In this document: positions 7,187 through 64,000 of the stretch, in pieces
Layout of the letters: every line of letters starts with the position of its first letter
How positions within the stretch are numbered: the stretch's first letter is position 1
Source of the DNA: Tomocerus qinae
Lineage: Eukaryota; Arthropoda; Collembola; Entomobryomorpha; Tomoceridae
DNA length: 64,000 bases
Assembly (NCBI GenBank): GCA_020055645.1
Contig: CM034547.1
Span: 41,581,909-41,645,908 of the forward strand
Direction: 5' to 3'
Translations under genes and position numbers: made by a program
Notes under the pieces: generated by a model
Told to the model about the DNA's origin: nothing
Databases searched by the model: none
The model's input: only the letters and a program-made list of their open reading frames with translations

Positions 7187-8109
7187 ATGAAGGCAGCAAC
7201 TTTATTCGGACTTTGTGTCATCCTCGCTGTGGTCTGTGGTACACAGGTTAGTATTTTACAATCTGATATCGCCATATAACAATAATAATAATTATTATTG
7301 TAAATAAAATTTTTTATGATGTCCAGGCGGGCAAACATTGTGGGATGAAGGCGTGTAAAAAATACATGCACGAACCCACAGAAGATCAGAAGGCCATGTT
7401 TAAGGAATGCTTTGGCGGAGCATCTGGTACCTCTGATGATGAAGACAAGAAGATGAAGATGTTTGTACGTCACATAATATTAATATCTTGTTACTTTTTA
7501 ATCGATTTAAAAAAAATTATTTTTATACATTTACATAATACCATTACTTTAATTTAGAAATTATTATTTTATTTTTATTTTACAGAAAATGGCTTCCTGC
7601 ATTGTCACGAAAACAAAAATTGTATGATTTCTTATAAATTTTCTCAAGCATTCAAAAAGTTAATGTTTTAGTTACAATGACTTTATATCCCAGGTAGACA
7701 ATGGTAAATTCATGAAGGCCACTTACGATTCTGATATCGACAAGAGATTTAAGGACGCCGAAAAGGCTGCTTTGGTAAAGAAGGAGACAGAAACTTGTCT
7801 TAAGGACGGTAAATACTTTAAATCTAATTACTTATTTTATCCAATTTTACTAAATATGAAAATGGAATGATCGAATAATATTACTAATTTAGGTGATGAC
7901 TGTTCCGACGATACCAAAATGGGCGCAGCCGTTAAATGCATGTGGGAAGCGATGGCAAAGGTAATCTCTATTAGTACATTATTTATTGCTAAATGCTAAC
8001 ATGTTTTATTACTATCTAATTTTATACATTATAAGCTTTAGCAGCATTACCGATCTGTTTACAAAACTTGTTATCATTTTAGGCTTGCAAAGGAGATGAC
8101 GCCGAATAA
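7187..8109 (+). CDS. Array gene A: small secreted odorant-binding-protein-like protein
   Basis: Six exons: 7187-7246, 7327-7464, 7586-7621, 7694-7808, 7893-7960 and 8083-8109; 147 residues. Exon 1 is a signal peptide (MKAATLFGLCVILAVVCGTQ), cut near GTQ-AG. The mature protein is about 125 residues, helical in appearance and rich in Lys/Asp. It has eight cysteines: HCGMKAC, KECFGG, MASCIVTK, ETCLKDGDDC, and KCMWEAMAKAC. The last pair has the C-x8-C spacing of cysteines 5 and 6 of insect odorant-binding proteins, and SCIVTKTKIVDNGKF resembles the helix-3/4 segment. The classical C2-x3-C3 pair is missing. The OBP family carries small hydrophobic ligands in extracellular fluid; assignment here is an inference from pattern, length and exon-1 signal peptide. 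Closest relative is gene B. Alternative: an unrelated lineage-specific secreted family. Confidence 0.7.
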
Positions 8110-12631: not shown

Positions 12632-14028
12632 ATGAAGGCTTCTGCAGTCGCACTTCTAGGACTTTGTTTCCTCCTTGCTTTAATTAGCAGTACTCAGGTA
12701 AATAAACCATTTGTGTCACTTTTAAAAATACGTCAATTCAATTTAGATAAATACATTACAAAATTATCAAACACAGATTGAGTTGTATAATTTCTGATTT
12801 GAATTTACTACAATTATCATCCATTATATATTTGATATGGAATACATTGAAAATTGACGGACGAAAATCTATTTACAATTAATGTAAATGTAACTAACTA
12901 TAAACTTTTAACGTTCTTTTATTCTAGTGAAAAGCAAACATATTAGAGAACTAAATTCTTGGTATAATGGTAGCATTCTAATGTTGTCTAATGTGGACAT
13001 CATGAAAAAGCAATTATGGCTATCATAATTCGTGTTATCTATCGCATAGCCTTTTCACACTGTATTGGTTAATCATTGAGAATTATGAAAGCTTTTCAAT
13101 ACTGGAAAAATGTTTTTATCCATGAAATTTTAAAATTAAAGGCAGGAGGAGGAGGAAAAGGGAAAGGGAAAAGAGGGAAATGTGAGGGGATGAAGATGAT
13201 GGACGAAACGGATAAGGCAATGTGGAAAGACTGCGGCGGTAAAGAAATGAAAAAACCAGATGGTGGTGCTGAAGGGACTGGTGGTGACGAAGGTGGAGAG
13301 GGGAAAAAGAAACATTGGGAGAACATGAAGAAGGTTAAAAAATTATTTAAAAGAACCTTGTTTAAAAATTAATAAAAATTAATAATTGAGAAACTTTTTT
13401 TGGACGATTGATTTGCAAGCCTTCATTCGAACTACTCTGTAATTATAATCTAATCTAATTTCAAAAACTTTAAAAACTCCTTTTAGGTGGGAAAGTGCAT
13501 GATGGAGAAGCAGGGAATCGTAAGTATTTTATTTTCAAGCACATTATTTTATGTTGGACAATTTTCACGTATATACCGTTTTGTTTACATTGTGTTTAGG
13601 TTGCTGGCGGCCGACTTAATGTAGACAAGTATACTGAATTAATGAATAAAAAGTTTGAATCTTCCGAATCTGCCAATAAAGCATCAGAGGCCTTTAAAAA
13701 ATGTTGTGAAGGTATATATTATTGTGATTCTTCCTAAAAATGACAAATTGTCAAATACAAATTACAATGCAATTGCTAATTGTGTGCTGTTTTAGGTTTG
13801 ACTGACAAAGACTTAACTGACGAGGATATGGGAAAGGTCGGCAAGTGCTCAATGAAATCCATGTGGGCTGTAAGTTTCCTTATACTCAATTAATTATCAA
13901 TAATGTACAATGTAAATAAATAAATTCTACCGTGGCCCTCGCTAGTTGAGTAATAAGGTACTAGTAATTTTAATAATTACATATTTCAGGGTTGCAAGAA
14001 GAAGGAGAAGAAGGAAGATGAAAGTTAA
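12632..14028 (+). CDS. Array gene C: Lys/Gly-rich secreted OBP-like protein
   Basis: Six exons: 12632-12697, 13142-13333, 13487-13519, 13600-13711, 13796-13869 and 13990-14028; 171 residues. The signal peptide is MKASAVALLGLCFLLALISS. The mature N-terminus is Gly/Lys-rich (AGGGGKGKGKRGKCEG). A Gly/Asp/Glu-rich loop (PDGGAEGTGGDEGGEG) follows KDCGG. The second half resembles the odorant-binding fold: KCMMEKQGIVAGGRLNVDKY, then KKCCEG, then KCSMKSMWAGC with C-x8-C spacing. The tail is KKKEKKEDES. Exon count and phases match A and B, which supports common descent despite low identity. Seven cysteines in the mature chain. Secretion is supported by the signal peptide; ligand is unknown. Confidence 0.75.
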
Positions 14029-22246: not shown

Positions 22247-23945
22247 ATGAAGGCTTCTGCAGTCGCCCTTCTAGGACTTTGTTTCTTCCTTGCTTTAATT
22301 AGCAGCACTCAGGTAATAAAACGATTTGTACCACTTTTAAAAATACGCCGATTTCAATTTACAGAAACATAAAATTATCAAACACAGATTCTCAGTTAAT
22401 GTTTTCCATGATTTTCTGATTTAAATTTATTAAAATTTTCATCCATTATTATGGAACTGGCACGTATCTATAAATTTGTTCAATGGGGGCGCAACGACAA
22501 AAAATAAGCATATTCACGCAAAAAAATTTTGCAGTTTTTGGCCTTGTTTGAGAAAAAACTCCTCTTTTTCTCAGATTTAAGGGGGATGGGGGCTGGGCTC
22601 CCGCCCCCTACTGGATACGTGCTTTATATGGAATAAGTACATTGAAAATTAACGAACGGAATCTATTTACAAAAATAAAACTAACTTCTAAAATTAATTC
22701 TAGTGAAAAACAAACATTAGAGAACTAAATATTTGACATCGTAAAGTCCTAATGTTGTAATTTCACTGGATTTATATTTGCGAATTTTAAAAGTTTCATA
22801 TTCACATTTGTGGACATCTAGGGTTGATTGAAATAGTATTATAGCTATCATAATTTTCGTGTTATCGATCACATACCCTTTTCATATGTATCCATCCTGT
22901 TGTATTGGTTAATCATTGAGAATTATGAAAGCTTTATTATACTGGAAAGATGTATTTTATCCATGAAATTTTAAAATTAAAGGCAGGAGGCGGAAAAGGG
23001 AAAGGGAAAAGAGGGAAATGTGAGGGGATGAAGAAGATGGACGAAACGAGTAAGGCAATGTGGAAAGAATGTGGCGGTGGGGACATGAAAAAGCCAGATG
23101 GTGGTGCTGAAGCGACTGATGGTGACGAAGGTGGAGAGGGAAAGAAAAAGCATGGGGAGAAATTTAAGAAGGTTAAACTTATTTAAAAGAACCTTATTTA
23201 AAAAATTTGCTAACACAGGGCCTAACCATTTGCAACAGCCTTCATTCGCGCCACTCTGTAATTACAATCTAATCTCATTTCAAAAACTCCTTTTAGATTG
23301 GAATGTGCATGATGAAGAGGATGGAGATCGTAAGCACTTTATTTTCAAATACATTTTTTTTACAAATTGGACAATTACGTATTAAGTACTCAAAAATAAC
23401 AGACTGGAAACCAATCCTACCCCTCCTTTTAACATGAAAAGTCAGGCTAAAATTTGAGGCGTAGGAGGGTTTCTAGTCTCCATTATTTCTGAGTACATAG
23501 TATCATTTTGTTTAGATTACTGCTGACAATAAAGTTAATGTAGACAAGTATACAGAATCAATGAATAACATGTTTGAATCTTCCGAATCTGCCAATAAAG
23601 CATCAGAGGCCTTTAAAAAGTGTTGTGAAGGTATATACTATTGTGATTATTCCTAAAAATGACAAATTGTCAAATACAATTACAATGCTAGAGCTAATTG
23701 TGTGCTGTTATAGGTATGACTGACAGAGAGTTAAGTGAAGAGGAAATGGGAAAGGTTGCCAAGTGCGGAATGAAATCCAAGAGGGCTGTAAGTTTCCTTA
23801 TACTCTTTTAAATTGTCAATAATCTATATACAACATAAGTAAATAAATTGTACCGTGCTAGTTGAGTAATAGGGTAGTAATTTTAATAATTTTATTACTA
23901 TTTCAGGGTTGCAAAAAGAAGGAGAAGAAGGAAGATGAAAGTTAA
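22247..23945 (+). CDS. Array gene D: Lys/Gly-rich secreted OBP-like protein
   Basis: Six exons: 22247-22312, 22983-23171, 23297-23329, 23516-23630, 23714-23787 and 23907-23945; 171 residues. Signal peptide MKASAVALLGLCFFLALISS. Exon 2 (AGGGKGKGKRGKCEGMKKMD) is nearly the same as in C. Exon 3 and the start of exon 4 differ sharply from C and E: IGMCMMKRMEI then ITADNKVNVDKY, where C and E have GKCM(M/L)EKQGI then VAGGRLNVDKY. The end has KKCCEG, KCGMKSKRAGC (C-x8-C) and the same KKKEKKEDES tail. Introns 1 and 3 carry insertions (about 22456-22625 and 23386-23496) not seen in C or E. Confidence 0.75.
22456..22625. mobile_element. GC-richer insertion in intron 1 of gene D
   Basis: Relative to intron 1 of genes C and E, about 170 extra bases lie here. 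The ends carry GGCACGTATC and its inverse GATACGTGC. The inside is unlike the rest of the array (GGGGGATGGGGGCTGGGCTC). Probably a small non-autonomous element. Confidence 0.5.
23386..23496. mobile_element. Foldback element in intron 3 of gene D
   Basis: About 110 bases absent from C and E. The ends pair: GTACTCAAAAATAACAGACT at the left against the inverse of AGTCTCCATTATTTCTGAGTAC at the right, with some mismatches. No coding content. Confidence 0.55.
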
Positions 23946-25635: not shown

Positions 25636-26928
25636 ATGAAGGCTTCTGCAGTCGCACTTCTAGGACTTTGTTTCCTCCTTGCTTTAATTAGTAGCACTCA
25701 GGTAATAAAACCATTTGTGTCACTTTTAAAAATACTTCAATTTCAATTTCCCTAAACATAAAATTATAAAAGTAGATTCTGAGTTCAAGGATTTTCTGAT
25801 TTGAATTTACTAAAATGTTCATCCATTACAATTATGATATGGACTGCATTGAAAATTGGCGAACCGAAATCTATTTTTACAAATGTAACTAAATTTAACT
25901 AACTAACTTTAACCTAGCTATAGTTTACATTGGTTGGATACTTTTGCGAATTTTTAAATTTTCATATTTACATTTATGGACATATCTAATTGAAACAGTA
26001 ACTTAATTATGGCCATGGCTATCATGTTGTCTATCGCATACCATTTTCATGGGTATCCATCCTGTATTGGTTAATCATTGAAATTTTAAAACTAAAGGGA
26101 GGAAAAGGGTGGAAGAAAGGGAAATGTGAGGGGATGAAAAAGCATACAGAAGAGGATAAGGCAATGTGGAAAGAATGTGGCGGTGGGGACATGAAAAAGC
26201 CAGATGGTGGTGCTGAAGGAACTGATGGCGACGAAGGTGGAGAGGGAAAGAAAAAGCATGGGGAGAAATTTAAGAAGGTTATATTATATATATTATTTTA
26301 TTCTTCGGATGATTTGCTAACACAAGGCTGTGACGTGAGCGTCACTTTATAAACTAATCTCATTTCAAAAACTTTTAAAAACTCCTTTTAGATGGGAAAG
26401 TGCATGTTGGAGAAGCAGGGAATCGTAAGCACTTTATTTTCAAACATATTTGTTTATTTTTTACATATTGGACAATTTTCAGATATATTATTTTGTTTAC
26501 ATTGTGTTTAGGTTGCTGGCGGCCGACTTAATGTAGACAAGTATACTGAAACAATGAATAACAAGTTTGAATCTTCCGAATCTGCCAATAAAGCATCAGA
26601 GGCCTTTAAAAAATGTTGTGAAGGTATATTGTGATTATTCCTAAAAATGACAAATTGTCAAATACAAATTACAATGCTATTGCTGATTGTGTGTTGTTTT
26701 AGGTTTGACTGACAAAGACTTAACTGACGAGGAAATGGGAAAGGTTGCCAAGTGCGCAATGAAATCCAAGAGGGCTGTAAGTTTCCTTATACTCTTTTAA
26801 ATTATCGATAATGTACAATAAAAATAAATAATATTATTCTACCTTCCGTCCCCGCCAGTTGATTAAGGTACTAATTTTAATAATTTCAGGGTTGCAAGAA
26901 GAAGGAGAAGAAGGAAGATGAAAGTTAA
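25636..26928 (+). CDS. Array gene E: Lys/Gly-rich secreted OBP-like protein
   Basis: Six exons: 25636-25701, 26098-26277, 26392-26424, 26512-26623, 26703-26776 and 26890-26928; 167 residues. Signal peptide as in C. Mature start GGKGWKKGKCEGMKKHTEED, four residues shorter in the Gly/Lys tract than C; the HTEED stretch recalls gene B (NEHTEEDK). Exon 3 (MGKCMLEKQGI) and exon 4 (VAGGRLNVDKY) match C and not D. Ends KCAMKSKRAGC (C-x8-C) and KKKEKKEDES. It is the last gene of the array. Function inferred as for gene C. Confidence 0.75.
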
Positions 26929-27662: not shown

Positions 27663-30600
27663 TTACCGACGCATAACGACGTCACCATTTGGAGCAAATC
27701 CAACGGGAGCCAAAAATGTTAGGGGAAGGTTATTCGTTTCCTGTGGTTCTGCATTCATTATATCAACTTCCTGTTTGTACTCCGCTTCTTGCAAACTTTC
27801 TGCAGATACAACCTGTATAAAGGATAAAATTATATTAGGCTAACAGTTTATACTGACAGTTTACTATCACGATCACGATACCAGGAACTTCTATTTTCTC
27901 AACAAATCCAAAACGTAATTAATTTATAACAATAAAATATAACTCCATCAATCATGCGTGACCGAATAGAAACATGGAATGTCATGCTTTTCTGTTCTGT
28001 ACCTTTATGTCATGTTGCTCGGCTTCCTGCTGCTAATAATAAAAGAAAATTACATTAGCCTCAATAAAAGTTATTAAATAGAATAGAATAAATAGACATA
28101 ATAAAAGTATATATTAATATATTTATCCAGAATGTCGCCCAAGGCAAAAAAGATATTTAAGAGTCACAATGAAAAAGTACAAAATTGAAATTACCTGGTA
28201 CGATGTAGAGAAATATTGTGAGCCGATAACATTGCTAACCATTGCGTCTATATTCTCTGTATTTTAAAAGTTACACATTGTTATGATACGCCATACGCGT
28301 TAAATGCAAATCAATTATCATTATTGTAACTTTTAAGTACCTGGATATTTTAGCGAGCTAATGTTTTCATTTAAAATGCTTGCTATTGTTTGTTTGACCT
28401 CTTCCAAGTTAACCTCTACAACAGCATAATGGCGACCACGATCGACAAGGTCCTTTTCCACCTTTACTACGTGTACACCACTTTCATCTAATTTCCATGT
28501 AAAATAATTGCTGGACAATGCTTTGACAATATCTTTTATCCATGGAACATCTAAATCCGTTTTTTCATGTAGATGGAACCATGGGAAATTATCTCTAAAA
28601 TAAAAAAATATTTTTACTCGATTTTTGTATGTATTTAAAAAGGCAACTTAAAAGTTTACACTCACTTTATAAATCCAAGTATTTCTGGTAGCGATACAAA
28701 ATTCTGCACGTTATTCTTGATGGCCAAAATAGCTAAGTATTCATAACTGATGTTAGGCTTTGTCCACTGTCTATTTTCAATTTCTGTAGTGAGTGGTGTT
28801 ATCGTCATTGGAACTACAATATTATATAATGGCAATGGTGTGTAAATCGTCATCGATTGTTGCTGCTGAGGCTCCTGTTCTTCCTCTTCTACAGTATCTG
28901 GCAAAACTTCCTCAGGCTCTGGTTCTAGTTCACTCACTCTACGACTCACAATCTGATTTTGTAAAATATTATGATTAGTATATGAACAAAAATTATGGAA
29001 AATGAAAGATTTATAATTAATTGGACCTTTTTCTTTTTACTGGCCGGTCGGGGTGGTGACAATCGTCGTTGCAGTTGGACTGCTTTCTACACAGAAATGA
29101 AATACAACAATGTAATTAATTTGAAGACGTAGAAGAATTAGTTTTTTGGCAAAGTCAAATAAAAAATTTAGATATTACCAAGAATGATTTTCTCTCTTTC
29201 GCAATAAAAGCGTAGTCAACGTCATCACCGACAGCTCTTTTCAGGATCTCTTCCAGATTTTCTATTATAACGACAAATACACAAACGTCAATAAGCTCAA
29301 AAATATGGTTGATGGCTAAAAATGATATTCTGCAGATAATATAGATAATATAATTAGTAAACCTACCATGATTCCCAATGGACTCAAAAATGGATAAAGC
29401 AGAAGCCTTAATTAAATTGTTAATTTCGACTTTTATGTTTATAATGCTGTCGTCCTCAGCATCGGCTACTGTCCAGGCAAATCTGCTTGGTAAACGAACT
29501 TGCCTAGAATTAACTGCATCCAATTTAATTAATTTGAAACAGTCATTTGTCTTGAGGCAAAGGTAAAGTGAGTTCTTCCAATTAGCTTGATATGAATTAA
29601 AAAACGGAAAGACTTCTCTGTAAAACACAAAGTCAAACACAAATAAGCATTAGTCAAATTAAGTAAATCCAGAAAATTGAGCGACTGAACTTACTTAATG
29701 AAATTGTGAATCTCGCTAATTTTCAGTGATTTTGAAGAACTACTGTTTATTGCTAAGAATGACAAGTGAGTATAGGTGAATGGTGGGCGTCCATAGCCCG
29801 TCTTATCAGGATCCAAGCATGGTTTTAGATATACGTGTTCATTTGGTGAAGTCCAATCTGATCTGGAATTGGAAACGACTTCGTCAGTTTTCTTGTGTTT
29901 CTCTTGTGGCGTTACAATTGTGATGATGTTGCTATTTGTACTTCCCTTTTCATGTCGTTCAGAAATGTAAATTTTTTCATTGTTATTCTGTATTTTTCCT
30001 TTTTCAAGTTGATCTTGTGAGTAAATCTTTTCTGCTCTAGCTTCTAACTGATCAATGTCAACAGTATGTTCAACAATTTCAAATCCAGGATCTTCAAAAC
30101 TATCGTCGGCAGTAACATTGTTTTCAGAAGATTGATTTTCTAAGGCGCCAACCAATAGCGCATTACAAAGTTTTTTTAATTCTCCTGAAACACAAATGTA
30201 CGTTTTTAAAATATTAGTAACTTGTAAAGATTAAAATAAATTACAATTTAAAAATAGGTAGCAAAATTACTTGGATGTGACAATGAATTTAGACTATTTG
30301 TACACGCATCTCTTATCGATTCTCTAATTTTATCAATTTTTCTTTCCCATACTCCATAACGTCTATTTGTTGAATTTGTTTCCTTTTTACTCTTGAAATA
30401 CTCTGTCTCCAAAGCTCGCTTTAGATCAGAGCCCCAATTAATACTGTCGGCCTTAAACCATGGGAAATAGTCTCTACAAAATCAAAACAGGTATTTTAGT
30501 TATAATTATTAACAATTTAATATAAATTATGAGTGTAATAGATTGCACTGACTTAATAAACTTGCAGATAGCCGAAAAAGGTAAACACTTGTCTTTCGTT

Positions 30601-32380
30601 TTACAATTTTTAATAGCAAGAACAGCCAACTGAATATAACTGAGTTTTGGCTTTTCCCATACTTTATTTGCTTCATTAGGTTGTTCAACGTCCATAGTTT
30701 CATGCCTGTCTACATTAAACTGCTCACTTTCCTCATCGTTGTATCCATGCGAAGAGAAACAGTTACTGGGACTTTCAGGTGATTTACCCTGCAATGGGTC
30801 AATACTTTCCTCTGTGGAAGTTTCGTCCCATGGCTCAAATCTAACAACCTCCTCCACCAAATTGTACGTTGATTTGGGTTCAATATTTATCACAATTTCG
30901 GAGTGTACAGAGTTTTCATTGGTTGAATTATTGTTTGCGCTACTGTACCCCGACGTTTGAGATGTTCCACTGCTAACCGAAGTAACAATAGAATCCGCCG
31001 AAGATATAGTATTTTTGGTCAATGTTTCCAAATGAGTTTCGGTAATATGAGAACGACATTTATTTCGCGAGAAGAAAATCGCAAAGCACACTCCACATTT
31101 AAATCGAGAATTGTTTGCATGGACTACATTTATATGCCGAGACAGTGATACCTGACTTTCTCCTTTTATAATCATTGCACAAAACTTGCATTTGTACATG
31201 TCTCTGTAATCTAGAAACATAAAATAGGAAATAATAATATTAGAGCTTGTGAATGTGCGCCAGCACACCTCAATGAAGTCAGAATCCAAGAATGGAAAAC
31301 ATATTTATATAATAATAATAATAATTGAAAAATTGTTACTTTCAAAATAGATGTGAGTTTGACTTTTATCGAACTTCGGTGGTTCTGGAAATTAAAAAAC
31401 ATAAAAAAATTATAATAAAACAATTTTTAACTATTAAAACTAGATGATTGGAGAATTGAAGGGCAAGATAATTTTTACGAAGAGGAATGGGGGAAAGAAA
31501 TTCAGTAATAGATAGGTAGTCTAAGTCTACCTAAAAAGAGTATTATTGTACCTGCTACTACGATTATTGAATCTTCAATGTTATTGCTGGAGTCTTTATT
31601 CTCTTCGATTCTAGATTTGATGCCAACATTTTCATTTGCTGAAAAAAATGGTTTTGGTATTGGTACAATTTTTAATACCGAATCTTCTTGACTAATAACA
31701 CTATCTTTATCTGTGCCACTTTCAGCTAGGAGGGAAACGGTCGAGCTGGAACTGGAACATGGATCTTGACGATCTTTACTCATGTAGTACGTTTTTTTCC
31801 CTTTCATTCCTTTCAGAGCATTATTCATGTCCATTTTAACGATTGGGAAAAATTCTGCAAAAAGTTAAAATCAAGAAATGAATTAGGTAATACATAAACA
31901 GTTCCATTTGAGTCATTCGTTATTTAATTTCTGTCTGTGCTTGTTTTGTACACTTTCGTGAAACAAATACAAAATACAATACGAATATATATTTTTTCTT
32001 TGATTTGGAGTAAACACGGCTTTATTACCATTAACTGCCATCCTTCGAAAACGGTCGACACACGAATCCCCACTAAATTCATTATTCCATTGAGAATTTT
32101 TGATTATAGAAAATTTGATGAATTCTACTTTTTGTTTTAAACTTTTTAAAATGAAATCTAAGCCTTCTTGTAATCGACACAGATCTTCCATAAGCTCGAC
32201 ACAATCCACGCAATAGTCAAACGTTTTGCTGATAACGGCAGCATGCTTTCTTGATGAAGGAGGGATCAAATGATTTATTAGTAACTCTGAATAAACTTCT
32301 TTCCTGTCCGTCACATGAGACTCCTTGTTACAAATTAGACAATTGTCCAATTTCATTCTTTTCGGAGAGGGATCTTCCAT
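27663..32380 (-). CDS. ZAD-like / C2H2 / triple forkhead-like protein
   Basis: Fourteen exons on the minus strand: 32029-32380, 31552-31854, 31340-31384, 30553-31210, 30271-30473, 29695-30184, 29367-29617, 29179-29261, 29027-29086, 28666-28952, 28341-28594, 28195-28256, 28003-28032, 27663-27812; 1075 residues. Residues 12-80: CLICNKES and YCVDCVELMEDLCRL, a paired Cx2C domain like the ZAD of arthropod zinc-finger proteins. About 240-290: two C2H2 fingers (CKFCAMII..., CGVCFAIFFSRNKCRSH). Three forkhead-like winged helices: near 420-485 (KPKLSYIQLAVLAIKN / DYFPWFKADSINW), 652-715 (RPPFTYTHLSFLAINSS / EVFPFFNSYQANWKNSL) and 880-945 (KPNISYEYLAILAIKNN / DNFPWFHLHEKT). The usual RHNLS recognition helix is changed in all three. 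Probably a nuclear DNA-binding protein. Exon 9 uses a weak donor (AAG-GTCCAA), the least certain join. Confidence 0.75.
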
Positions 32381-33695
32381 TTTGAAGGCCAATGAACGTT
32401 TATTTTTTGCAATAGTCACGAATCGAAAAGAAATCTCCAAAACAATTTGTAAGCATCAACACATCGCCCAATTGTTCAAAACACCACCAACCACTCAGCT
32501 GGTTTATGGTCAATGGTTTAGGAAACCGTCCTGGTTTTCTGAAAACAAAATTATGGCAATAATTTAATTGATATTCAGTATTTGATATTTTGATATTCAC
32601 CAGTATAAACCGTGCGATTAGGGATTTACTGTGTTCACAAAACCGAAACTTACTCAATTGTCAATAGGACAAATTAATACAACCCAAAACAAAACTGCAT
32701 AAAAAGGTTGAGTGTGTACATGTGTGTATAGTGGTATATGGCTTGGATTGTTATTATTCTAGCTTAGAATTAACTGAACACGTATAGCGGACTCACTGGT
32801 GCATATACCCTTTATGCCAAATTCCTGATTTTAGATAGCTAAAATTTCGATTTTTAATGGAACATTGAACATGACGGACACACTCGACACAATCGGACAA
32901 TTTCAGTCTTAGTTCAAATCTCCCTGAAGCTTGCAAGAGTCCCTCGCTCACGCGTCTCACTCACTTCTTGTTATTACTGACATCCTTGCAGTTTGGCTTC
33001 TCGTAGAGTTCATTTCCAGTTCCAGCATAGGCAGAGCTACCCATTCTTTTTCGTTGGGATAACCATTCTTGTTCTTCTTTGCACTATAAAAATGTTCAGC
33101 TCTTGGCTCTCTTTTTCTCTAATCTATGGTCATCGCTCTTCATTCATAAATTCATAAAATATTATTTTAATTTTTGCAAACGATCTTATTTTTTGCACTA
33201 ATAATTTAATCATTATTTTTGAAACAAGACATTTGGCTATATTATGGCTATAGGAAAATATACATTTATATATTTATATTGTATATCTAATAAATCTGAT
33301 TGGCAAGGCAGAAGGCACGAGTGAGTACATATAGATAGAAATGGAACTTTAATAAATTATTATACACTCTGACTACTGTTAAACTTTTGGTTTTGATATC
33401 TAGGTAAAAAATAGATAACAATTTAAGTACAACACAAACACAAGGAAGAAATATTTTTCCTCTTCCTCATTTCACTTGCATACATATCCATCAAGGTTTC
33501 CCTCTTTCTCATTATCCATAATATTATTATTTCCTTAGTTCACTCAAAACGAGTAAACCATGAGTTAGATCATAATAATTGCAGTGAACAAAAACATTTA
33601 AATTATTTTCATCATTATAACATTAAAAAGTGGAGTACATTGTTAAAAACTTGTTTCACAACGCGTTTTACACTACCATTATAAAGTAACTAAAA
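32381..33695. other. Divergent intergenic region
   Basis: No supported coding sequence. It lies between the starts of the minus-strand gene (32380) and the plus-strand gene (33696), so it should hold both promoters. The run TTCATTTCCAGTTCCAGCAT and the surrounding 32890-33130 are less AT-rich and may be transcribed leader sequence, but I see no defined motif. Confidence 0.5.
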
Positions 33696-34955
33696 ATGGA
33701 TAAAAACTTCGTTATTATTTTGTTTGCATTCTGTTGTATTATAAATGCTACCAAAATTTCTCATCACAGAGTAAAGGACAGAGATGCTCTTGGACGAAAT
33801 TTCAACTCCCTTCAATATAATGTTAGTATACAAAAATGTATTTTATTAGCATTGTATAATATAGCTTTTTTATTACAAATTATTCAGTAAAAGAAATCTT
33901 TCTTCTTTTACTCGATTTTGAATAGAATTAGAAGATATCAGCTATACATTATTATTATATTAAAATTACACTGATTTAATATCTAGCTTAATGAAGCTGG
34001 GCGGCAATACCGCAATTCTGAAAAGGGTGAAGTTATCAATACAAAAAATGACAATAAAATTGTGAAATGGGATGAAGACCAGGATATAAATAATGAAGTA
34101 GATATTGATGAAATAGTAAAGCCATATTATGATGCAGACGAGCTGGCAGATAATGATACTGAACACGAGGACAGAATGTTAAAAAACAATTTATCTTGGT
34201 ATGCGAAATTCAAAAACTACATGAAAAATAAATTGAAGTCATTGAACCATCGAATATTTTCTGAAAAAAACAAAACCCCAAAAAGTAAGTATAATATAAT
34301 ATATTAAATTATTTCAATCTACAGCTAAGTAAGTATTATATATGTCAGGTGCAGCAATGAAAGGGGACATTTTTGGCCATTTTGGCTAATAAAAATATAT
34401 ATACTTTATTCTCTTAATTTTTTCATTTAGCTTAGTTTGCTTCGGAGTTCATTAAAAATTTTTTTATAATATTATCAGGTTGATACAATCATCAGGTTCA
34501 ATATAATTCATTCAATCTTTTAACAATTATTAAATTATTATTAATTATTATGGTCTAAAAACCTATAGAACTGTAGAAATTTTAAATCTGGCCACACCTA
34601 TTATAGATATTTAGCTTACATAAAATAAAACAGCCTTTTGTAGGTAATTCATTAATCAACGGAATCAAATTTTCCTACACTTTACTTTAAGTGAAAAAAT
34701 GGGTAAATTGTATGCATTAAAATCTGCTTCTACTCTACACATAATGACCTAATTTGTAAAATGTAACCCAAAAGAATCATCGGTAATGACAACTAATAAT
34801 TTTGTTCAGATCAGGATTCCTAAAATATCATTAACTAAATACCTATTACCTATAACGAAATTTTAATATTATACAATACTAGTGTATTTCTGGTGAAATT
34901 TCAATTCATAGATGAATATCAAGATTCAGTCAGTGGACAATACAGTTCATTTTAG
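33696..34955 (+). CDS. Small secreted acidic protein, unknown
   Basis: Three exons, 33696-33821, 33987-34284 and 34912-34955, give 155 residues; joins are GT-AG and in frame. Residues 1-19 form a signal peptide (MDKNFVIILFAFCCIINA). The rest is hydrophilic with no cysteines: a stretch of acidic residues (DEDQDINNEVDIDEIV, DADELADNDTEHED) followed by a basic part (WYAKFKNYMKNKLKSLNHR) and a short end (SGQYSSF). A neuropeptide-like or other processed precursor is possible, since basic residues flank several segments, but no known peptide or amidation GKR motif is seen. I do not recognise it. Confidence 0.6.
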
Positions 34956-35197
34956 AAGCCACAGGAGACAGTCATCAACCAGCCAATTTCTTTCGATTCA
35001 ACACAGAAATGGTATACTCGTATCAAGTTTCATAATTCAGTCAGTCATTAGAATCTGACCATCGATGAAATTAATTCTCAATGTTATGCTACCTGTAAGA
35101 AAACCATTTCACGATTAAAATTCTGTTTGTTTTTAAGCAATAGTACATTTTATGTCACATCTTACTGAAATAGAAACTTACCTTATCTATCTCTTAT

Positions 35198-38100
35198 TTA
35201 TTTTTTGGGAGTTTCCTGGTTTAAAATAAAAATAATTTGTTTAAAGCAAATAATTATTGAAAATGACACATCATGAAAATGAAAGAAATAGTACATACTC
35301 TAATAGGTTATTTTTACTTAGAAAATAAGCTAAGTTTTACCTCCAGGTTTTCTGAAATTGCTTCCATCCCATTTCCATTTCTTGATAAAAATGACGAGGT
35401 TTGTTTACACTTTGTTACCTTCTGTAAAATTAATTGAAATTATTGAATAAAACAGTTAGATGTAGATACACCAAAAATAACAAGAACAGAAAATTCACTT
35501 TACCAAATGTTGCTGTTTGTTTGTTGCTGTTGCTGAATTTTTTAAAAACGATAAGTCATACTTGCTGCCTAAAGCCTTCCTTACAATTTCTTCTAGCTTT
35601 TCTATAGAATACAGAGAAACAAATATTGGTTTAAGCATGAGTCTTTATAAATTTTTGAACTTCCATACACGATATGCTTAAAATACCATAACTAATTGCA
35701 GCCAGGTAATTGAGGGAGAGGGATCCTTTTAAAGAACTGAGTATTTGCAATCGAATTTGGCTATAATGTGGCTCTACTTTTTCAATGCTCCAGCTTATCA
35801 ATGGACCAACTTTACCCTGTTCAAAATTCCGTTTAAAATAGCACCGATTTGTATTCAGAGTTTCATAGACGCACTTTTTCCAGCTGTTTTCGGTACGATA
35901 GTATGGGAAATTCTCTCTGTAAGTAAAGCCAATGACAACAAAAGTAGTAAAAGCAAAACCAAATTATCTATTTTTACGGAATACTAACAATGAAAAGTTC
36001 TTACGCAATAAATTCAATTATTTGCCTTGTGCCGAGAGTATTGTTTGAGTTGGGACTATTCGCGAGTGCCAAAATTGCCAACTGGCTAGGCGAAAATGTT
36101 GGACATATATATTTGCTCGTCGTATTGTTTTCATTTAATGTGTTGTTAAGTTGAGGAGCCGGATCATTTGAAATTGCAAATGGAGATACTGTTGCTTGTC
36201 TTTGTTCACTACCTCTATCTTTTTTCTCAGGAGACTATAATTTCAAGTTAACAAGTACATGAAATTAAATTTTGCGGTATATTTAGATATTCTATACTGT
36301 TTTATATTGTAGTAAAAGATTACTTTAGCCACTTGGCAAGTATAACTGTTGACAATTTGTGGAATTTTTGATGTAGTGTGATTATCTAAAATCTCATTCA
36401 TATCTTCGACTTTAATTGTCGGTTTTATATCTAATACGTGAGGAACTTTCATTTCTACTTTCAAATTGTCATTGACTTTCTGTAACAAAAAATCAGGTGT
36501 TAGTATTGTCATTTATTGGAAAACAATAAATATTAAATATTTAAAAACAAAATCTCACTATTTCACTTTCTTCACAAGTTCCTTTGTTTAAAAGCTCATT
36601 CGACACTCCATGTACAGCCATATTTTGGCAATCCAAATGTGAATTAGAGCAAGTTGGCACATTTGAATTATTTTCCACCTATTAAGGATAATTGCATTGT
36701 TAGCGTTCATTTCATAACATAGCACAGGATAGAAAATAGGTCTTACGTCTAAAGATTGCGTTTCCGTTGCATGGACGGTTTCAGACAAATAGTCTAGTGG
36801 AAGTGGCAATGAATTTACAGCGATACTGTCTCTTCCACTGAATTCGCTGGAGACCTTATCACCAAAAAGAGCCTTTACAAAGACCTCCAGCCTTTCTGAA
36901 TTCATCAAACCATAGTTTCATTATTCATAGGTAAATATATTAGTCACCATAATATAATATACTTAAGCCTAATAAGTCCATTATAAGGACTTAAATTAAA
37001 ACTTACCAGGAAACTCCATAAGATGCTGGTTTTTCTCGCACAAGAGAATAATTGCATTTCTAACTGCAACACATTGGCTTTCAACAACAGACCATCTACT
37101 ATGTAAATCGCTATCTCGTTTCCCGCTGATTGTACTAGAGTCATCATAGTCAGGAAGTTGCCAAAAATATTGGGTGTTAGTCAAGCATTTTCTAATTAAG
37201 CTCTTCCAATGAGGCTTGGCCGTTCGATAATATGGAAAATGATCCCTGAGTACAATCACAAAATATTAGTGGACGGAAGTTGATACAAAATTATGTTAAC
37301 ATTGTATAAACATGGCATTACTTTATAAAATCGTAAATTTCTCCGGTACTTAATTCATTGCTTTTACTACTCTTGATTGCCAAAACGATCAAATAATTGT
37401 ACGTCAGCGTGGGCCTCTCACATATTTTTTCCTTGTTTTCAGTCAGACGTGGACCTTCAAGTTGAGTAGTCTCGTTTCTACTTATTACGTCTATGTCAGT
37501 CTCAAAGTCATTAACCTGTTCAGAAGGTCTGGCAATAGAATTGAAAATCCTTTCTTCTTGTACGTCTAATGGATCAATGATTTCATTCGCAGCAGAAGAA
37601 GGATCATTCCAAGGATCATACTGTTCAATTTCTTCTAAGAATGGATATTCCTTGTTTTCGATGATGATATTTTCCTCCGATAAGGGTTCTTTCCTTTCTA
37701 CGTCAATCCGAGGGATTTCAGGAGCAATAATATTTTCCTCGGAACATGTAGCCATTCCAGAATCTTCACTTCTGGAATCTTCAGTTGATACAGATATTTT
37801 ATCCTTTTCGTTTTCTATAATTCCTTCATCATCTGCTTTGTCATCCTTACTGTGAGAAAAATATAACTTGATTGCTTTAGACTACAAGAATTCCTCTTAA
37901 AAAATCGAAGCTAATTGCAACTGGTTAATTAATAACTGAATATAATGAAATAATGACATTTACTTAGATAAACCTTACCTATCCTTACTGTCTTTTAAAT
38001 TTGATTTTAATAAAGCTTTTGAAAAATTATTTTCGCCATCACAAATAGATTTCGTTGAACTTTGCACACTATTCACGTTTTCCCCACCGTTGTCTGCAGA

Positions 38101-38912
38101 TTTTAAGGTCCTTTTGATTAGGACATTGTTTACATCCATTCTTACTCTGGGTGAGAGATTTGCTAAGTAAAAATTCAGAGTAGTGTGTCAATGAGTGTAT
38201 GATTCGAGACTTGTGAAAGTTTATTGATTATATTTGTGTTACCGTTACCTTTATTTTTTTTATAATAATTGTGCCATCTTAAATCTTAAATTATACTAAA
38301 ATGTTAAATTTTGTTACCTTTATAAAGGACTGATACAGTTTCATTATTTAATTTCGGAGAAATGATCTCTAGAGCAGGTTTTTTTGCAGACTTCTGATTT
38401 GGTCTCGGTATTACTTTACACCTTTCCAATTTGACTGTCGGGCGAAGATCTGCAAGAATTTATATTTACTATATACAATTTGTTATTATATACATATATA
38501 AATATACATCACCATTTTAACTTTAAAGGAGCAAACTTTAAAAATAAGCATAAATGTTGAACATACCACGAAGGGACATATGGCGAAAATAGTCTATGTC
38601 AATATTTCCACTAGACTTCTGCAATATCATTGTGGTCTTTAGTGTATTAACTTCAATACTTATTTTCCTTAAAATAGCATCCAAATCTTCTTTTAGACGC
38701 GATAATCTCTTTATAATATTTATGCAAACAGTGCAGAAATTAAAAATTCGGCCATCAAAGAGATCTAAATTATTATCATTTGAATGAGGGACTAAATATT
38801 TCACTAATAATCTCCGGTAAAGATTTCCATTGAAATCTTCAAAAGAATCTTCGTTGCATATCAAACATGTATCAAGATGTCTTTTTCTTTTAGATGTGGG
38901 GCCCCGTTCCAT
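35198..38912 (-). CDS. ZAD-like / double forkhead-like protein, paralogue of the 27663-32380 gene
   Basis: Thirteen exons on the minus strand: 38567-38912, 38318-38449, 37979-38162, 37322-37849, 37007-37245, 36747-36895, 36559-36678, 36324-36479, 36005-36234, 35687-35916, 35504-35601, 35341-35421, 35198-35215; 836 residues. Residues 15-85: CLICNEDS and FCTVCINIIKRLSRL, the same paired Cx2C domain as its neighbour. Forkhead 1 (about 365-430): RPTLTYNYLIVLAIKSS, GEIYDFIK, DHFPYYRTAKPHWKSLIRKC. Forkhead 2 (about 662-725): CPTFSPSQLAILALANSPNS, ENFPYYRTENSWKKC. FPYYR plus W are forkhead hallmarks, and domain 1 is the most canonical of the five. Each is followed by a short helical module (ERLEVFVKALFGDKV; EKLEEIVRKALGSKY) like ENLEEILKRAVGDDV in the other gene. 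No C2H2 fingers were found. The 18-nt last exon is the least certain. Confidence 0.75.
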
Positions 38913-43769: not shown

Positions 43770-45943
43770 ACGGGAAACATTCAAGTATTACTGCTAGATG
43801 ATATTATTACTGCATTTTTGCATCTAACATAGTTCTCACAATGAGTTTAACAATGTTCTCTTTGGAGGACGATACTAATAAGACTGAACAGATTGGTGGA
43901 TCTAATAGAACACGCTAATGAATTTCATTCACCTAATGATAAGAAGGATACAATACAAATTTTAATAATAACATGGAAAAATGGAAATTACAAAACCCAT
44001 TTAAAAGTTAATTACTTGTATTTATTGCAATTTATTACTTATTAATTTGTTGCTTCGCTTTACTGCATTTTATTCGCCTTCACATAATACTATATTAATT
44101 AATATGATGTATGTGTTTTCATTATTAAGAAATGAAACATTAGGTGGAGTATTTAAAGCTATGAAATTATTTGCATAAATAATAGTATTATAATGTAATG
44201 CCGATCTTGCACGAATTTAGGGGTGCAAAAAATCTGAGAAGATGTTTCATTAAAGGTTAAAAAGTCGTAAAAATTCTTATCTCTTCACGTGAATATACTA
44301 CTTTTTGGTTAGTATTAGTGACTAGACTAGTGACATGTTTTGTTCGATCTTCGTCAGATGATTGATATTAATGATATCAAAGTAATAAATGGCAACGTCT
44401 GTCCCTCGTAGGAATAAGGCTTTAACAAAATGTCGATACTGTAATAACTAATAATATATACTATTGTAATAATTATATATTCGTTTTAGTGTTCTATTCC
44501 TTATGGACTTTGCTAGTCTTCTATTATTATTACATCTTTATTATATAATGCAATATTTTTTGTAACTTGTTATTTATTTTGATCTTTTTATTTCTAAAGG
44601 GAAGTGTACTAGTGATGTTATATAGTGACTAGGAAATGTTAATGTTAGCAGTAGAAAGGTTCTAAAATATTTGGCAGCAGTAGAACAACAAAATGAGTTG
44701 TGGTTATTACTGAGTTGTGTTTTGTGTTTGATTGTATTGTAAAAATTATTTATAGCAAAAATATACAAAGTTTTCATAAATTGCTGTATTATAATCACGT
44801 TTAAACGGTATTTTAATTTTAATTTGTGTACCGTAAATATCGATATAGTTCCGCGCGGAATTATTGTTTCAAACCCATGAAAAAAAGCTTGAAAACGCTA
44901 AAATAATATATTTCGATAGGCGGAACTATATCGATATTTACGGTATATTCAAAAGGAGAGCGCTTATTGGATTTGATGTGGAACTAGAAATTGTGTAACT
45001 AGAAATTGGAAGTTAGTAGATGAAATTGTATACTATGTATTAATTGTTTTGTGTGCGGTAAAAATAACCCTAACGGTATTTTGTAAAATATACCTACCTA
45101 TGCAAAAAGTCTTCAGCGAAATGCAATAAAAACCAAAATTTACGTGTATATTTGTAAAAAAAATTATTGAAATTTTTTAATGAAAAATTGTTCCCAATTA
45201 TTTTTCAAAATTTTGGGATAAAACGTTCACTTCCAGCTCATTTCATTTAATATTCCGTCTTTCCTTCCATTTCATTTAGATTTCCCCGAAAAACATTAAA
45301 ACCGCAACCCTTATTTTCCCCAATTGCTCATCATTAATTAAAATAAAATATACATAATAATTTTCCATTTGTGGAAATAAAGGACATAAAAAATTCATCT
45401 TAGTGAAATTGGCCATTGAGAAGAAAGTCCGGGAATGTTCCATATAGATATCCATGTGTTTAGTATTCAGAAGAGCAGTAATTTAGTATACATTCAATTC
45501 ATTCAGTCTCGAAGAGTCAACAAGACCAAACCTTCCATTTCTACAGACTAGGACTAGACAGTGTAAAACGTACCAATAAGTTTTTTTTACTTATTCACGT
45601 AAAACTAAAATATTGATATTGATGTATATAGAACTTATTCAGAAGCTCCATCACTCAATAATAATAATTATTATCTAGTCCATTATTTAAGAACATCCCA
45701 GCAAGTGCAGGGAGGAATTTATTGTGATTTTAACGTGATAAAATCGATCAGCTGGTTACATAGTTGGCCATTATTTTCAGTTTCTGGAAACTATCAAGTC
45801 TTAAAAACGGTAAGCAACAAGGCAAAACTTTAATTGTTATCATTGTGGCTTATTTTTCAGCAAATGCCTGAAGAAACCTCTTAATTTTGTATTATATCGT
45901 ACATCAAATATATAGGTGCCCTGGACTGAAAGCAGATGTAAAC
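43770..45943. other. 3' UTR, intergenic region and 5' leader
   Basis: No supported coding sequence. Includes the 3' UTR of the preceding gene, a small TA-flanked element (44831-44943), and the 5' flank of the zinc-finger gene. A non-coding first exon for that gene may lie before 45860, since ATTTTTCAG at about 45852-45860 is a good acceptor. Confidence 0.5.
44831..44943. mobile_element. 113-bp miniature element with TA target duplication
   Basis: Ends are perfect 24-bp inverted repeats (CCGTAAATATCGATATAGTT... and complement), flanked by TA at 44829-44830 and 44944-44945. This is the pattern of Tc1/mariner-type miniature elements. A matching left end occurs at 14427-14467, so the family has at least two members in the window. 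Confidence 0.8.
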
Positions 45944-47984
45944 ATGCAGATGCATTTTTTGAATACAAAAATTTTAGAAGAAAAATGTGCGAATTGCACT
46001 TCTCCTTTCGACAAGAAAAACCTTCGAGCTACCAAACTTAAGGTATCTCGTGACAAATCTGCTCAGGAAATGGAAATTCAGGTATTGGACGCTCTGGCAT
46101 TCATTTGCGAAACATCACGAAATGAGTTCGCAAATACATTGGCTCACTTTATTGAAGATGAAGAAAACGAGACAATCTTACCAACCACTGCGGATTCCTT
46201 AACTGTGGCATTGTGTTGCCAATGTGCACCAATTTTGACAGAAATGTACAATTTTCACAGAAGTTTTAACAAGTTGGCAAAAACAGACTCCATTATCAGC
46301 AAGGTCAAAACTTTTCTGGGAAGACATCCGATGAAAACTGACACATCTATCACTTTAGGAGATACAGAGGAATTTGGAGAGAATTTGTTTGATGATTTAA
46401 GTTATGATGCTAATCAAATTTTATTGGAAGATAATCTGGATTTTCGTTACGAGTACGATGTGCTGACAGATTTTCCGCAATTGTTGCCCAGCTCTACTTC
46501 ACCAACTGTCAAAATAGAATCTCAAGAAACAGTCCCACTTTCGAAAGCTCTACATCCTTTAACATTTTCACTTGCAAAAGCAAATGACGATTTCAATATC
46601 GAGAGAAAACGATACTCAGGAGGCGCAAAAATTGGATTGAATTCAGTCGCTCATTTTGGTAAGAATAAAATGCTAAAAGTTTACAATTTACAATACTACA
46701 TGCACTTAATCAATCAAAGCTTTAATAGTGAAAAAATATATTTTGTTATGTAGAATCATTGATATATATTATGGCAATTTTAAGCATATTTTATTTGGTG
46801 GTTTATTTGCAGGGCCATCATTACCAGTTCCTTTTGCAAATGGCAGAATCACTAGAAGGATGACTCGAGAAAGTGAAAAAAGTGACAATCAACTGAATAT
46901 CGATGACAAAAGTTTACCAGCAGCTACTTCAACCATCACTCATGTAGCCGTCGGTCTCGAAGAATCTGAAAATGATTTCAGTTTGGGAGCTGTAGGAGCA
47001 AACGAATATGAAGATATTGCTTTCGTGCAATCGATAGAAGTTTCCAATATTGATGAGGACATTGCGACACCATCAGAAAGTTCACCATCCCAATCAATTC
47101 AAGTTGATGAGCATTCGACCATTAATATTGAACAACTCGAAGAATTGAGTGGAAGTCAAATGTCCAAAGAGTCATTTACCAACGGAAACTTCCAAATTGA
47201 AAACGAATCACCTAGTTCCGAGGGGTCAGCCAAGGAAAAAGCAGAAAGAAAAAGCAAAAGTGGAGGAAGAGTTCCATGTGGTGTCTGTGGCCAGAAAATA
47301 TGCCAAGATAACATGAGAGGTCATATGAAAATTCATGCACCCGTTAGGGAAACATTTAAATGCGAGCTGTGTGACAAGGTCTACTTGCACAAAAGAAACC
47401 TCAAGGTTCACATGAAGACGCACAAACAAGGTGAAGATGTCAATTGTCAATACTGTAACAAAATATACCCAACTTTGTTGCTATTAAAATGTCATGAAGA
47501 AGTTCATCATGGAGAGGAAAAACCTTATTGTTGCCTATTCTGTCCACTGAAATTTCGCAAACGGAGGGAGCTCGACGGTAATTGATTTTGTCATTCCTAA
47601 ACTATTCATTTATTCTTTCTGGGTTGAATGATTCTTGCATTTTTGTTTTCATACCAAAATAATGACATTATAAAAATATAGGGAATTATTTTTGCATTTA
47701 ATATATTTAAATTAATTCATTTTAATTTGGTTTATGTATTAATAATAGTTTATGGTATATTTATTAAAGTTCATTCGCCAATCCACTCTACAGAACGTCC
47801 ATTTAACTGTGCGGAATGTGGAAACAATTTCAAGCGTAAGAAAGATTTGAGGAGACATGAAAAGATTCATTCGGATTCCCGTCTGGACCAAGAATTGTTT
47901 AAATGCAAGGAATGTGGCAAACTTTTAAGACACAGTTTTAGCTTGTACAAGCACCGCGTTAAGTATCACCGCCAACAGCAGTAA
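45944..47984 (+). CDS. Six-finger C2H2 zinc-finger protein with ZAD-like N-terminus
   Basis: Three exons, 45944-46658, 46813-47577 and 47770-47984, give 564 residues. Frames join exactly, and the last join completes finger 4 (RKRRELD + VHSPIH). Residues 12-120 contain CANCTSPF and CCQCAPILTEMYNFHRSF, again a paired Cx2C module of ZAD type. A long acidic linker follows (EESENDFS, EDIAFVQS). The six fingers at the C-terminus are CGVCGQKICQDNMRGHMKIH, CELCDKVYLHKRNLKVHMKTH (first 20: CELCDKVYLHKRNLKVHMKT), CQYCNKIYPT..., CLFCPLKFRKRREL..., CAECGNNFKRKKDLRRHEKI..., and CKECGKLLRHSFSLYKHRVK.... Likely a sequence-specific DNA-binding transcription factor in the nucleus. Upstream in-frame sequence to 45887 lacks an ATG-led extension I would trust. 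Confidence 0.85.
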
Positions 47985-53767: not shown

Positions 53768-56181
53768 AAAGTACCTTGATTGCTATAATACACGCAAGAA
53801 CAATTAATACTTAATTATTAAGTATTAATTATTAATACTTCAACTATGGAAGGTAATGAGGGATTATAGTTATCTACAAATAAGTGCACACGAAACTTTG
53901 TGTACCACCACGTACACAAATTAATGAATTGATATTTCTAACAGGGTTGTATATTTTCCGGACGAAACTATTACTGTCCAGGATGAAAATAATTTTATCC
54001 ACTTTTTATCCAGGACCAAAGTGGACAAAACTAATTTCGTCTGGAATAAAATTAGTTTTGTCTCCTTTGTCCACATTTTCCTATCTGGAGACCGCAACCC
54101 TGATTTCTAACCGTATTATCTAGGTGTAAGGAAATGAACAGCAGAAATTACATTAAACGATTTGAAATTAGGAAAGTCAGCAGATGTACCTCAACCTCAA
54201 CTACATATGACACTGCTATTACGCATTTATTGTGGATCCCGACGACCCGATATTATATAGTGGCATTACTTTATATAATGTACACAAAATATAGCATCGG
54301 TTGTTCACTATTGAAGAACAACAATAACTTTGTACACCACATGAAGTTGTAGTGTAAGGCGTAAGGTACCAGCCAGATACGATGACTAGGAGAATAAGCA
54401 AATATAGATTGTGATTGACGAACATTTACATTTAGGGTAGTATACCTTGGAAGAAAATAATATTATAACCTTTTCACTGTCTGTCTGTACAGATGCGAAA
54501 TGGAAAACAGGTACGCATACACTTGCACTCTTTAATCACTATCCAAAGTATAGTCGACTCTTGTTTTTCTCCTTTTTATAAACACATGTATAATGCATGT
54601 TCATGGAGCCGATAGCAGTCAGATAGACTAAGCACACACACACACGAATTTAACATACTGACTGAGACAAGTCTGCACCTTTATGCAAAGCAATTGGACC
54701 TTATACACAACGCAGATGGTTAAAAAAGGTTTCTGCCTTGTACAAATAGTACAAAATACTTTTCTTATGCTAATTAACATTTTAAATTGTAATTACAGAT
54801 ACACTATGAATGCTATTGATATGTAAAAGGAGAAGTATAATGGCAAAGATGAAAAGGTGCTTGATTTTCCAATATTTACAGGATATTAACAGAGATGGAT
54901 AAATTGTAAACCCTGGACGACTATTATTAAATGATGATAATCTAGTCAAAGTGAAGTTGAAACTTGAAATGCAATGTCCAAATCTGAATGTACTAATCGT
55001 GTTTTGCTCTGATGCTGCGTTGGTCATTGTGAGTTCATTATGTAGGCCCATATGGAGTACCAAAACATTTATTAGTCAGAGCTAAAAAGTCGCTGTGGTC
55101 GGTTATGCGATTTGACAACTGTCAGGATTCTTGTGACTTCCGTTGTTATTGTCAAACTGCTTTTCTGTCTAAATTAATTCTTACTCGTGGTTTTTAATTA
55201 ATTTTTTTGCAGAAAATGCATAAGGTACATTGTGCAGTGCATAAGGCCCTTGAAAAGAATTTGAAAGTGGAAAAGCATCCAAAGTAAACGGATAGAAATC
55301 GAAAAAGGAGAGAAATTCAATGGATATCTTAAGCTAAAAATTTTCCTGATGCAAATCTTGCTCAGAGCTGTTTGTGAACAGATTTATAGGACCACTGTTG
55401 TTGACTGTGGATAGAAAACGTCTCTATAGTACAAAGCACACACCTCTACCTAATGTAGAGTCAGAAGGTAAAGTTTTTTGTTAGAGGCATGATTTCTGTA
55501 CCTGCATCATTTGTTTACATACAAACTATTATATTTACAGTGCAAAGACTACGAGAATAATTTGCAATTTATTTCCACTGATAAAAAGCGCATTTTTTGC
55601 AACTCGTTATAATTATTCTCCATTTCATGGTAATAAGACTTCGACGTCTTATAATCTTTGAGTTGCGAGCTGAGTTGGTATGAGTCAACATCAAAGTATC
55701 AGTTCCTATTTGTAATATTGTAAATAGCTCAGTAGTTTAGTAGGTGATATCTGTTCTCGACTGTATTTAGTACACTTTTCCTAAAGGAGTACCTTATTAT
55801 CTTAAGTGCACATAATCATAACGATCGTAGTACCATGAAATATTATCTTTGTTGTTGTGATACTATATATATTATGCAGTGGGCAGTGGGTGGTGTGTGA
55901 TAATTAATTGCGTAACTCAGACAAGTCTAGTGTAACAAGTATTTTCTGCAAGGAATGTGGTTCTACTGTGTTTAACATCATTAGCACATTCAACGATTAA
56001 AATTTTTGCAAAAGTGCAGTGTGTAAGCAAATGTAATTCGAAAGGTGCGAGAGTGAGACGCCTTTGCATTTGGATACAGCAATGTTGTGTATAGTCTACG
56101 CAATTGGTTATAGTGGAGTGACTTTCAGTGGATTCACTGCACATTTTCAGAAATTGTGATAATTATGTCATTCTTAGGAAA

Positions 56182-61128: not shown

Positions 61129-64000
<2,872 letters not shown>

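Follow-up and report, generated by a model that had tools for sequence, protein, structure and literature searches.

Known Fox proteins carry, to our knowledge, one forkhead domain each, and among other regulators the insect ZAD zinc-finger proteins form a large and dynamic family in which an N-terminal CxxC...CxxC domain is combined with repeated DNA-binding modules. Here we describe two neighbouring genes of the collembolan Tomocerus qinae, A and B, which lie in a stretch of 64,000 nucleotides (the window, C2:41581909-41645908 of a 334 Mb assembly in 115 contigs) and which very probably encode multi-forkhead proteins, three units in A and two in B, whose units descend from FoxN1/4. FoxN1/4 (human FOXN1; locus L023 in this genome) is alike in its forkhead, in both intron sites and their phases, in a PE-x-L-type motif in the next exon (looser in half of the units compared), and in being the top PDB match of a profile made from the five units, but it has one forkhead with the sequence WKNSVRHNLS in the stretch read, whereas in the family described here each modelled gene has two or three units, this helix sequence is lost, and there is an N-terminal CxxC...CxxC domain. 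Three further loci (L024 at C1:134.24 Mb, L025 at C3:23.23 Mb and L026 at C1:135.93 Mb) share with A two C2H2-like fingers (27-30% identical to those of A), a FoxN1/4-like forkhead and a PENL motif, with fingers and forkhead in a single open frame, but differ from A and B in having one forkhead without an intron, in keeping an RHTL helix, and in showing by eye no CxxC...CxxC in the open frame (we note that L024 and L025, which sit on different chromosomes, are near-copies). The insect ZAD proteins are perhaps alike in action, although the family here has no ZAD profile match and has forkhead repeats rather than a C2H2 array. A further parallel is Fox orphan-3 of the annelid Owenia fusiformis, which is also a divergent Fox gene with gained domains, although these are a RING finger and RAWUL, and further forkhead domains are unmentioned in the sections consulted (PMC9539403). 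Within the titles and opening lines of abstracts listed from an open-access collection, preprints lying outside this scope, we found no multi-forkhead, lineage-expanded or ZAD-linked forkhead protein.

Both genes are on the minus strand and were spliced by hand into 14 (A) and 13 (B) coding exons, and the outer coordinates originally predicted for them proved exact in these models. All 25 introns are GT-AG and 68-190 bases long, the joined frames contain no internal stops and no frame break, and GC content by codon position in the coding sequence (0.31-0.44) is above that of the introns (0.25). It should be noted that short exons, e.g. exons 3, 9 and 13 of A and exon 13 of B, were picked by hand. 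A and B are paralogous, as had been proposed (blastp E 8e-31), and their features are listed here in window coordinates:

27663..32380, minus strand: gene A, 1075 amino acids, 14 coding exons, three forkhead units (spliced model, Pfam)
35198..38912, minus strand: gene B, 836 amino acids, 13 coding exons, two forkhead units (spliced model, Pfam, blastp against A)
32029..32380, minus strand: A exon 1, N-terminal CxxC...CxxC domain (spliced model; domain at 17 genome loci)
38567..38912, minus strand: B exon 1, N-terminal CxxC...CxxC domain (spliced model, alignment)
31032..31190 (approximate ends), minus strand: pair of C2H2-like fingers in A (seen by eye; Pfam score under the cut-off)
30553..30656, minus strand: unit A1 first half (H1-H2), end of exon 4 (model, Pfam)
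30271..30473, minus strand: unit A1 second half (recognition helix, wing), exon 5 (model, Pfam)
29695..30184, minus strand: A exon 6, with the post-A1 helix (PRELKKL), linker and A2 first half; no Met before the forkhead core (model)
29367..29617, minus strand: unit A2 second half, exon 7 (model, Pfam)
29179..29261, minus strand: A exon 8, post-A2 helix (HENLEEIL) (model)
28666..28763, minus strand: unit A3 first half, end of exon 10 (model, Pfam)
28341..28594, minus strand: unit A3 second half, exon 11 (model, Pfam)
28195..28256, minus strand: A exon 12, post-A3 helix (PENIDAMV) (model)
37322..37419, minus strand: unit B1 first half, end of exon 4 (model, Pfam)
37007..37245, minus strand: unit B1 second half, exon 5 (model, Pfam)
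36747..36895, minus strand: B exon 6, post-B1 helix (PERLEVFV) (model)
36005..36234, minus strand: B exon 9, B2 first half; core not preceded by a Met, and a stop codon in frame immediately ahead of the exon (model)
35687..35916, minus strand: unit B2 second half, exon 10 (model, Pfam)
35504..35601, minus strand: B exon 11, post-B2 helix (YEKLEEIV) (model)

The Pfam Forkhead profile (PF00250, cut-off 27 bits) matches the whole of A with 104.6 bits (E 3e-30) in three stretches and the whole of B with 96 bits (E 1.4e-27) in two, and when the units are scanned singly all five pass (A1 37.0, A2 58.9, A3 28.8, B1 63.0 and B2 43.3 bits), A3 only narrowly. This profile run on the spliced translations, which the original prediction had suggested as a check, supports its count of five forkhead-like units at a level far above chance, and in the spliced models A (three) and B (two) do indeed depart from the single-domain norm of Fox proteins. 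When units from elsewhere in the genome are included, the cut-off is reached by 12 of 15 scanned singly (5/5 in the window and 7/10 elsewhere), with the first units of L052 (26.0 bits) and L053 (17.6 bits) falling below it and D3, the third unit of a gene described below, having no Forkhead match. Against PDB sequences, FOXN1 is the top match of B1 (E 2e-12) and of the five-unit window profile (E 3e-18, followed by FOXG1 and FOXK1); for A2, the matches to FOXA2, FOXN3, FOXA1 and FOXN1 are within about 1.5 bits of one another. The predicted structure of a second-half exon alone was uninformative (pLDDT 60).

That every forkhead unit is its own gene, joined to the others by an artefact of our gene models, is an explanation we consider very improbable. 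It draws on the models being known from genomic sequence alone, on the hand-chosen short exons, and on the Met codons present in the exons that start A1, A3 and B1. However, no Met precedes the forkhead core in exons A6 and B9 (for A6, neither in the exon nor in the preceding open frame), so units A2 and B2 could not begin separate proteins and depend on an exon upstream; exon A6 carries both the end of A1 and the start of A2; and the same exon order and phases are found in two other genes, C and D, elsewhere in the genome. A separate gene for each unit was set aside on the strength of the missing Met codons, an argument which covers A6 and B9 only, and the linkage of A3 to the rest of A rests on the splice model.

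The descent of the units is probably reflected in their introns. L023 is the FoxN1/4 gene of this genome (170 bits to FOXN1, E 1e-49; next FOXN3 with 104 bits), and it is cut by a phase-2 intron within FM-C-DHFPYF and by a phase-1 intron within MSDP-ENLEL. The units of A, B, C and D carry both introns at the same sites and in the same phases: the phase-2 intron is located just before (D/E/K)xFP or an equivalent in the five window units, C1, C2, D1-D3 and L023, and phase-1 entry is seen in exons 6, 8 and 12 of A, exons 6 and 11 of B, exons 6 and 9 of C and exons 5, 8 and 10 of D, as well as in L023. This shared arrangement points to descent from FoxN1/4, and five other domain-cut Fox genes (L013/14, L016/17, L020, L021 and L022) are seemingly cut elsewhere, as judged from the ends of their exon matches. 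Introns at conserved forkhead sites are described for clade II Fox genes in an annelid Fox paper (PMC9539403). After the second intron, PE-x-(L/I/V) is found in 5/10 units (A3, B1, C1, D1 and D2), with looser PE-x-L-type forms in A1, A2, B2, C2 and D3, and L023 has PENLEL. A 32-row tree, in which branches are long and the bootstrap is unsettled, places 15 units on one side of a branch with 94/89 support and groups L024-L026 with FoxN1/4 (92/85). The order in which the units were duplicated was not resolved by a 12-row tree of the longer units.

Some of the same data weigh against this origin. L019 has the first (phase-2) intron too, with FOXK and FOXP as its best PDB matches, and A2 taken singly finds FOXA2 and FOXN3 in addition to FOXN1, which leaves the second intron and the profile as the main grounds for FoxN1/4 descent. 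In the tree, with its long branches and unsettled bootstrap, 13 other Fox domains stand on one side of a branch (90/81) and the units together with FoxN1/4 and L024-L026 on the other.

Genome searches with four queries (A, B and two other members; E <= 1e-3 in at least one search) identified 17 loci with the N-terminal CxxC...CxxC domain, 14 on C1 and three on C2, which leaves 13 further loci besides A-D. Gene C (L010) is on the plus strand some 50 kb before the window, has two units and was modelled to exon 9, and gene D (L018) is on the minus strand of C1, has two units plus a third decayed unit without a Pfam match, and was modelled to the stop codon; the exon phases of A and B are repeated in both. 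Forkhead-like halves follow downstream on the same strand at 12/12 loci read (A, B, C, D and L047-L054), and more than one unit was seen directly at seven of these (A-D, plus the starts of second units in L047, L051 and L054), the read stretch ending early in L048, L049, L050, L052 and L053, with half a unit in reach in L048. A looser forkhead search (E up to 10, with 47 candidates scored, so that counts are lower bounds) found first-half matches 1.7-2.0 kb downstream on the same strand at four of the five unread loci (58.8206, 58.8264, 128.085 and 131.711 Mb; none at 39.471 Mb), which are weak (E 0.18-1.2, below the Pfam cut-off) and telling through their position, and a second such match behind the L050 unit at C1:58849261. 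The class that had been proposed is borne out within this genome, as a class of multi-forkhead proteins, by C, D and 13 more loci with the N-terminal domain. The term DNA-binding is not, since those residues of the recognition helix that read bases have changed. We also note adjacent weak matches to both forkhead halves (E 0.02 and 0.8) at C1:19933269-19933609 on the minus strand, where there is no match to the N-terminal CxxC domain, which may be another divergent member. After its two units (L010 5950-6350), gene C seems by eye to depart from A and B, with exons that are acidic and a PVTVV(S/A) tail of repeat-like character.

Two CxxC pairs with a long spacer are a ZAD trait, and an alignment of the N-terminal domain from seven members has four invariant Cys in two CxxC pairs, which are 40 positions apart in A. 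The paired CxxC described in the original prediction is present in both A and B, but the ZAD label attached to it is unsupported, as 0/7 of the domains match the Pfam ZAD (zf-AD) profile; the best match to PDB sequences reached only E 0.14. The domain may work like ZAD. The C2H2 fingers that had been assigned to one gene are visible by eye as a pair in A but score below the Pfam cut-off (best E 0.072); this pair is 67% identical to a pair in gene C, and similar pairs also occur on C1. Protein-database searches found nothing at E 1e-3 for A residues 411-1000 (best 7994 candidates by shared words), nothing at E 0.01 for B residues 360-445 (13 candidates) and nothing at E 0.01 for the alignment of seven N-terminal domains (403 candidates), and as the database is suspected to be animal-poor, these results are no evidence of absence elsewhere. 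By eye, a short (V/I)(K/R)FEPW motif lies ahead of the first unit in five members (A, C, D, L052 and L053), and B, L047 and L050 have weaker versions of it.

FOXN1 contacts bases through Asn317, Ser318, Arg320 and His321 (PMC7062188), and we compared the corresponding positions in 15 units (A1-3, B1-2, C1-2, D1-2 and the first units of L047, L049, L050, L051, L052 and L053) and 18 other Fox domains of this genome (including L024-L026, two of them near-copies) over 44 hand-anchored columns with the wing left out. D3 and L048 are not part of the comparison, nor are the incomplete second units of L047, L051 and L054 or the L054 first unit, which closely copies that of L047; 5/15 units lack the helix-anchoring Trp, and their register was fixed by hand. 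Within the helix, the hydrophobic positions are retained (I/V/L in 15/15, L/V/M in 15/15 and Trp in 10/15), and the four contact positions hold 10, 10, 8 and 10 different residues, with entropies of 3.19, 3.14, 2.82 and 3.11 bits compared with 0, 0.61, 0 and 0 in the other Fox domains, where Asn, Arg and His are each found in 18/18 and Ser in 16/18. All four are among the eight most variable of the 44 columns (5e-4 if columns are interchangeable).

We think it somewhat probable that A and B belong to a lineage-specific family of multi-winged-helix nuclear proteins derived from FoxN1/4 in which each unit has its own DNA preference. A FoxN1/4-type forkhead exon pair, together with its introns and the next exon, would have been duplicated within one gene that already had, or gained, the N-terminal CxxC...CxxC domain, and whole genes would then have multiplied to give three on C2 and the fourteen N-domain loci on C1. 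The N-terminal domain may join protein molecules (dimerising), and the winged helices, two or three in a protein, might be set on neighbouring DNA stretches; because the fold-defining residues are kept and the contact positions differ from unit to unit, each unit could read its own DNA sequence and the protein would then recognise a long composite site, as zinc-finger arrays do. The chances that the units do read DNA in this diversified manner seem to us about evenly balanced. The likely role would be to regulate genes or chromatin where targets change fast, a use shared with other expanded regulator families. The strongest binding of FOXN1 was to a probe carrying two motifs 10 bp apart (PMC7062188), a preference with which a FoxN1/4 descendant whose linked units sit on adjacent sites would be in keeping. 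More tentatively, and at somewhat less than even chances, these genes may constitute a large modular regulator family from FoxN1/4, with a re-specified helix in each module and a long composite site, which would be the forkhead counterpart of the expanded zinc-finger arrays. If true, this would be a natural experiment on changing forkhead specificity, in which fold-defining residues are kept, near-fixed base-reading positions are freed and modules are strung together; it would be a new route from one conserved regulator to a large regulator family, and would add an expanded regulator family without a zinc-finger-array basis.

A number of observations count against diversified DNA reading. Asn is kept in 2/15 units, Arg in 3/15 and His in 1/15, and no unit keeps all three together, so canonical forkhead DNA binding is unlikely. 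Exposed columns vary more anyway, and what is seen is therefore release from an old constraint rather than positive selection; variability at exposed sites can also mean lost constraint and not new specificity. Three units are not basic (net charge -3 in A3, -2 in the first unit of L050 and 0 in that of L052), the recognition helices of L047 and L054 differ by one residue and so show no recent diversification, and in the assay reported in PMC7062188 the FOXN1 forkhead domain alone gave no significant binding, so a bare unit may bind weakly.

It is possible, though we find it somewhat doubtful, that the units have kept the winged-helix fold but lost sequence-specific DNA binding, serving instead as modules for protein-protein or non-specific DNA or RNA contact, and that their helix varies from lost constraint. 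The release of all four base-contact positions in the 15 units, the neutral or acidic charge of some of them, the missing Forkhead match of D3 and the mere 17.6 bits of the first unit of L053 would all fit such a loss, but net charge is positive in 12/15 units (mean 3.7 vs 4.8 for the other Fox domains, p 0.27, with a unit spread of -3 to +10) and averages +1.2 over the recognition helix, and in A and C, as seen by eye, C2H2-like fingers adjoin the units. For one tandem pair only, L047 and L054, the forkhead exons are under purifying selection (dS 0.57, dN 0.086 and dN/dS 0.15, bootstrap 0.09-0.24, over 164 forkhead-exon codons; dS is uneven across the three exons, 1.63, 0.25 and 0.92), which counts in favour of the explanation given first. 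In this pair the helix exon has a dN of 0.04 vs a dS of 0.25, which argues against lost binding. The proteins may otherwise be mixed, with one or two units per gene still binding DNA (e.g. A2, B1 and D1) and the others decaying spacers, as the uneven Pfam scores (63.0 for B1, 58.9 for A2 and 58.4 for D1 vs 28.8 for A3) and the retention of Asn in A2 and of Arg in B1 and D1 would suggest. We regard this as unlikely, the L047-L054 pair being constrained over the first unit and the start of the second, and it is compatible with lost binding as well as with a DNA preference for each unit, our favoured explanation, which it overlaps.

The window contains other features besides A and B. Between the two genes, and on the opposite strand, there is a possible small gene with a signal-peptide-like start (33690-34310, plus strand). 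Four open frames on the plus strand (7267-7554, 13073-13369, 22929-23183 and 26002-26352) have a common KAM(F/W)K(D/E)C stretch and apparently represent a family of small proteins bearing cysteines; two of them were scanned and had no Pfam match above the cut-off. Two open frames at 45872-47585 (plus strand) are probably one zinc-finger gene, the first frame having CxxC pairs of another type and the second C2H2 fingers (zf-C2H2_4, 32.6 bits). Finally, 56122-64000 (plus strand) probably contains tandem carboxylesterase genes (by eye), with the exon at 57782-58039 matching COesterase with 89 bits.

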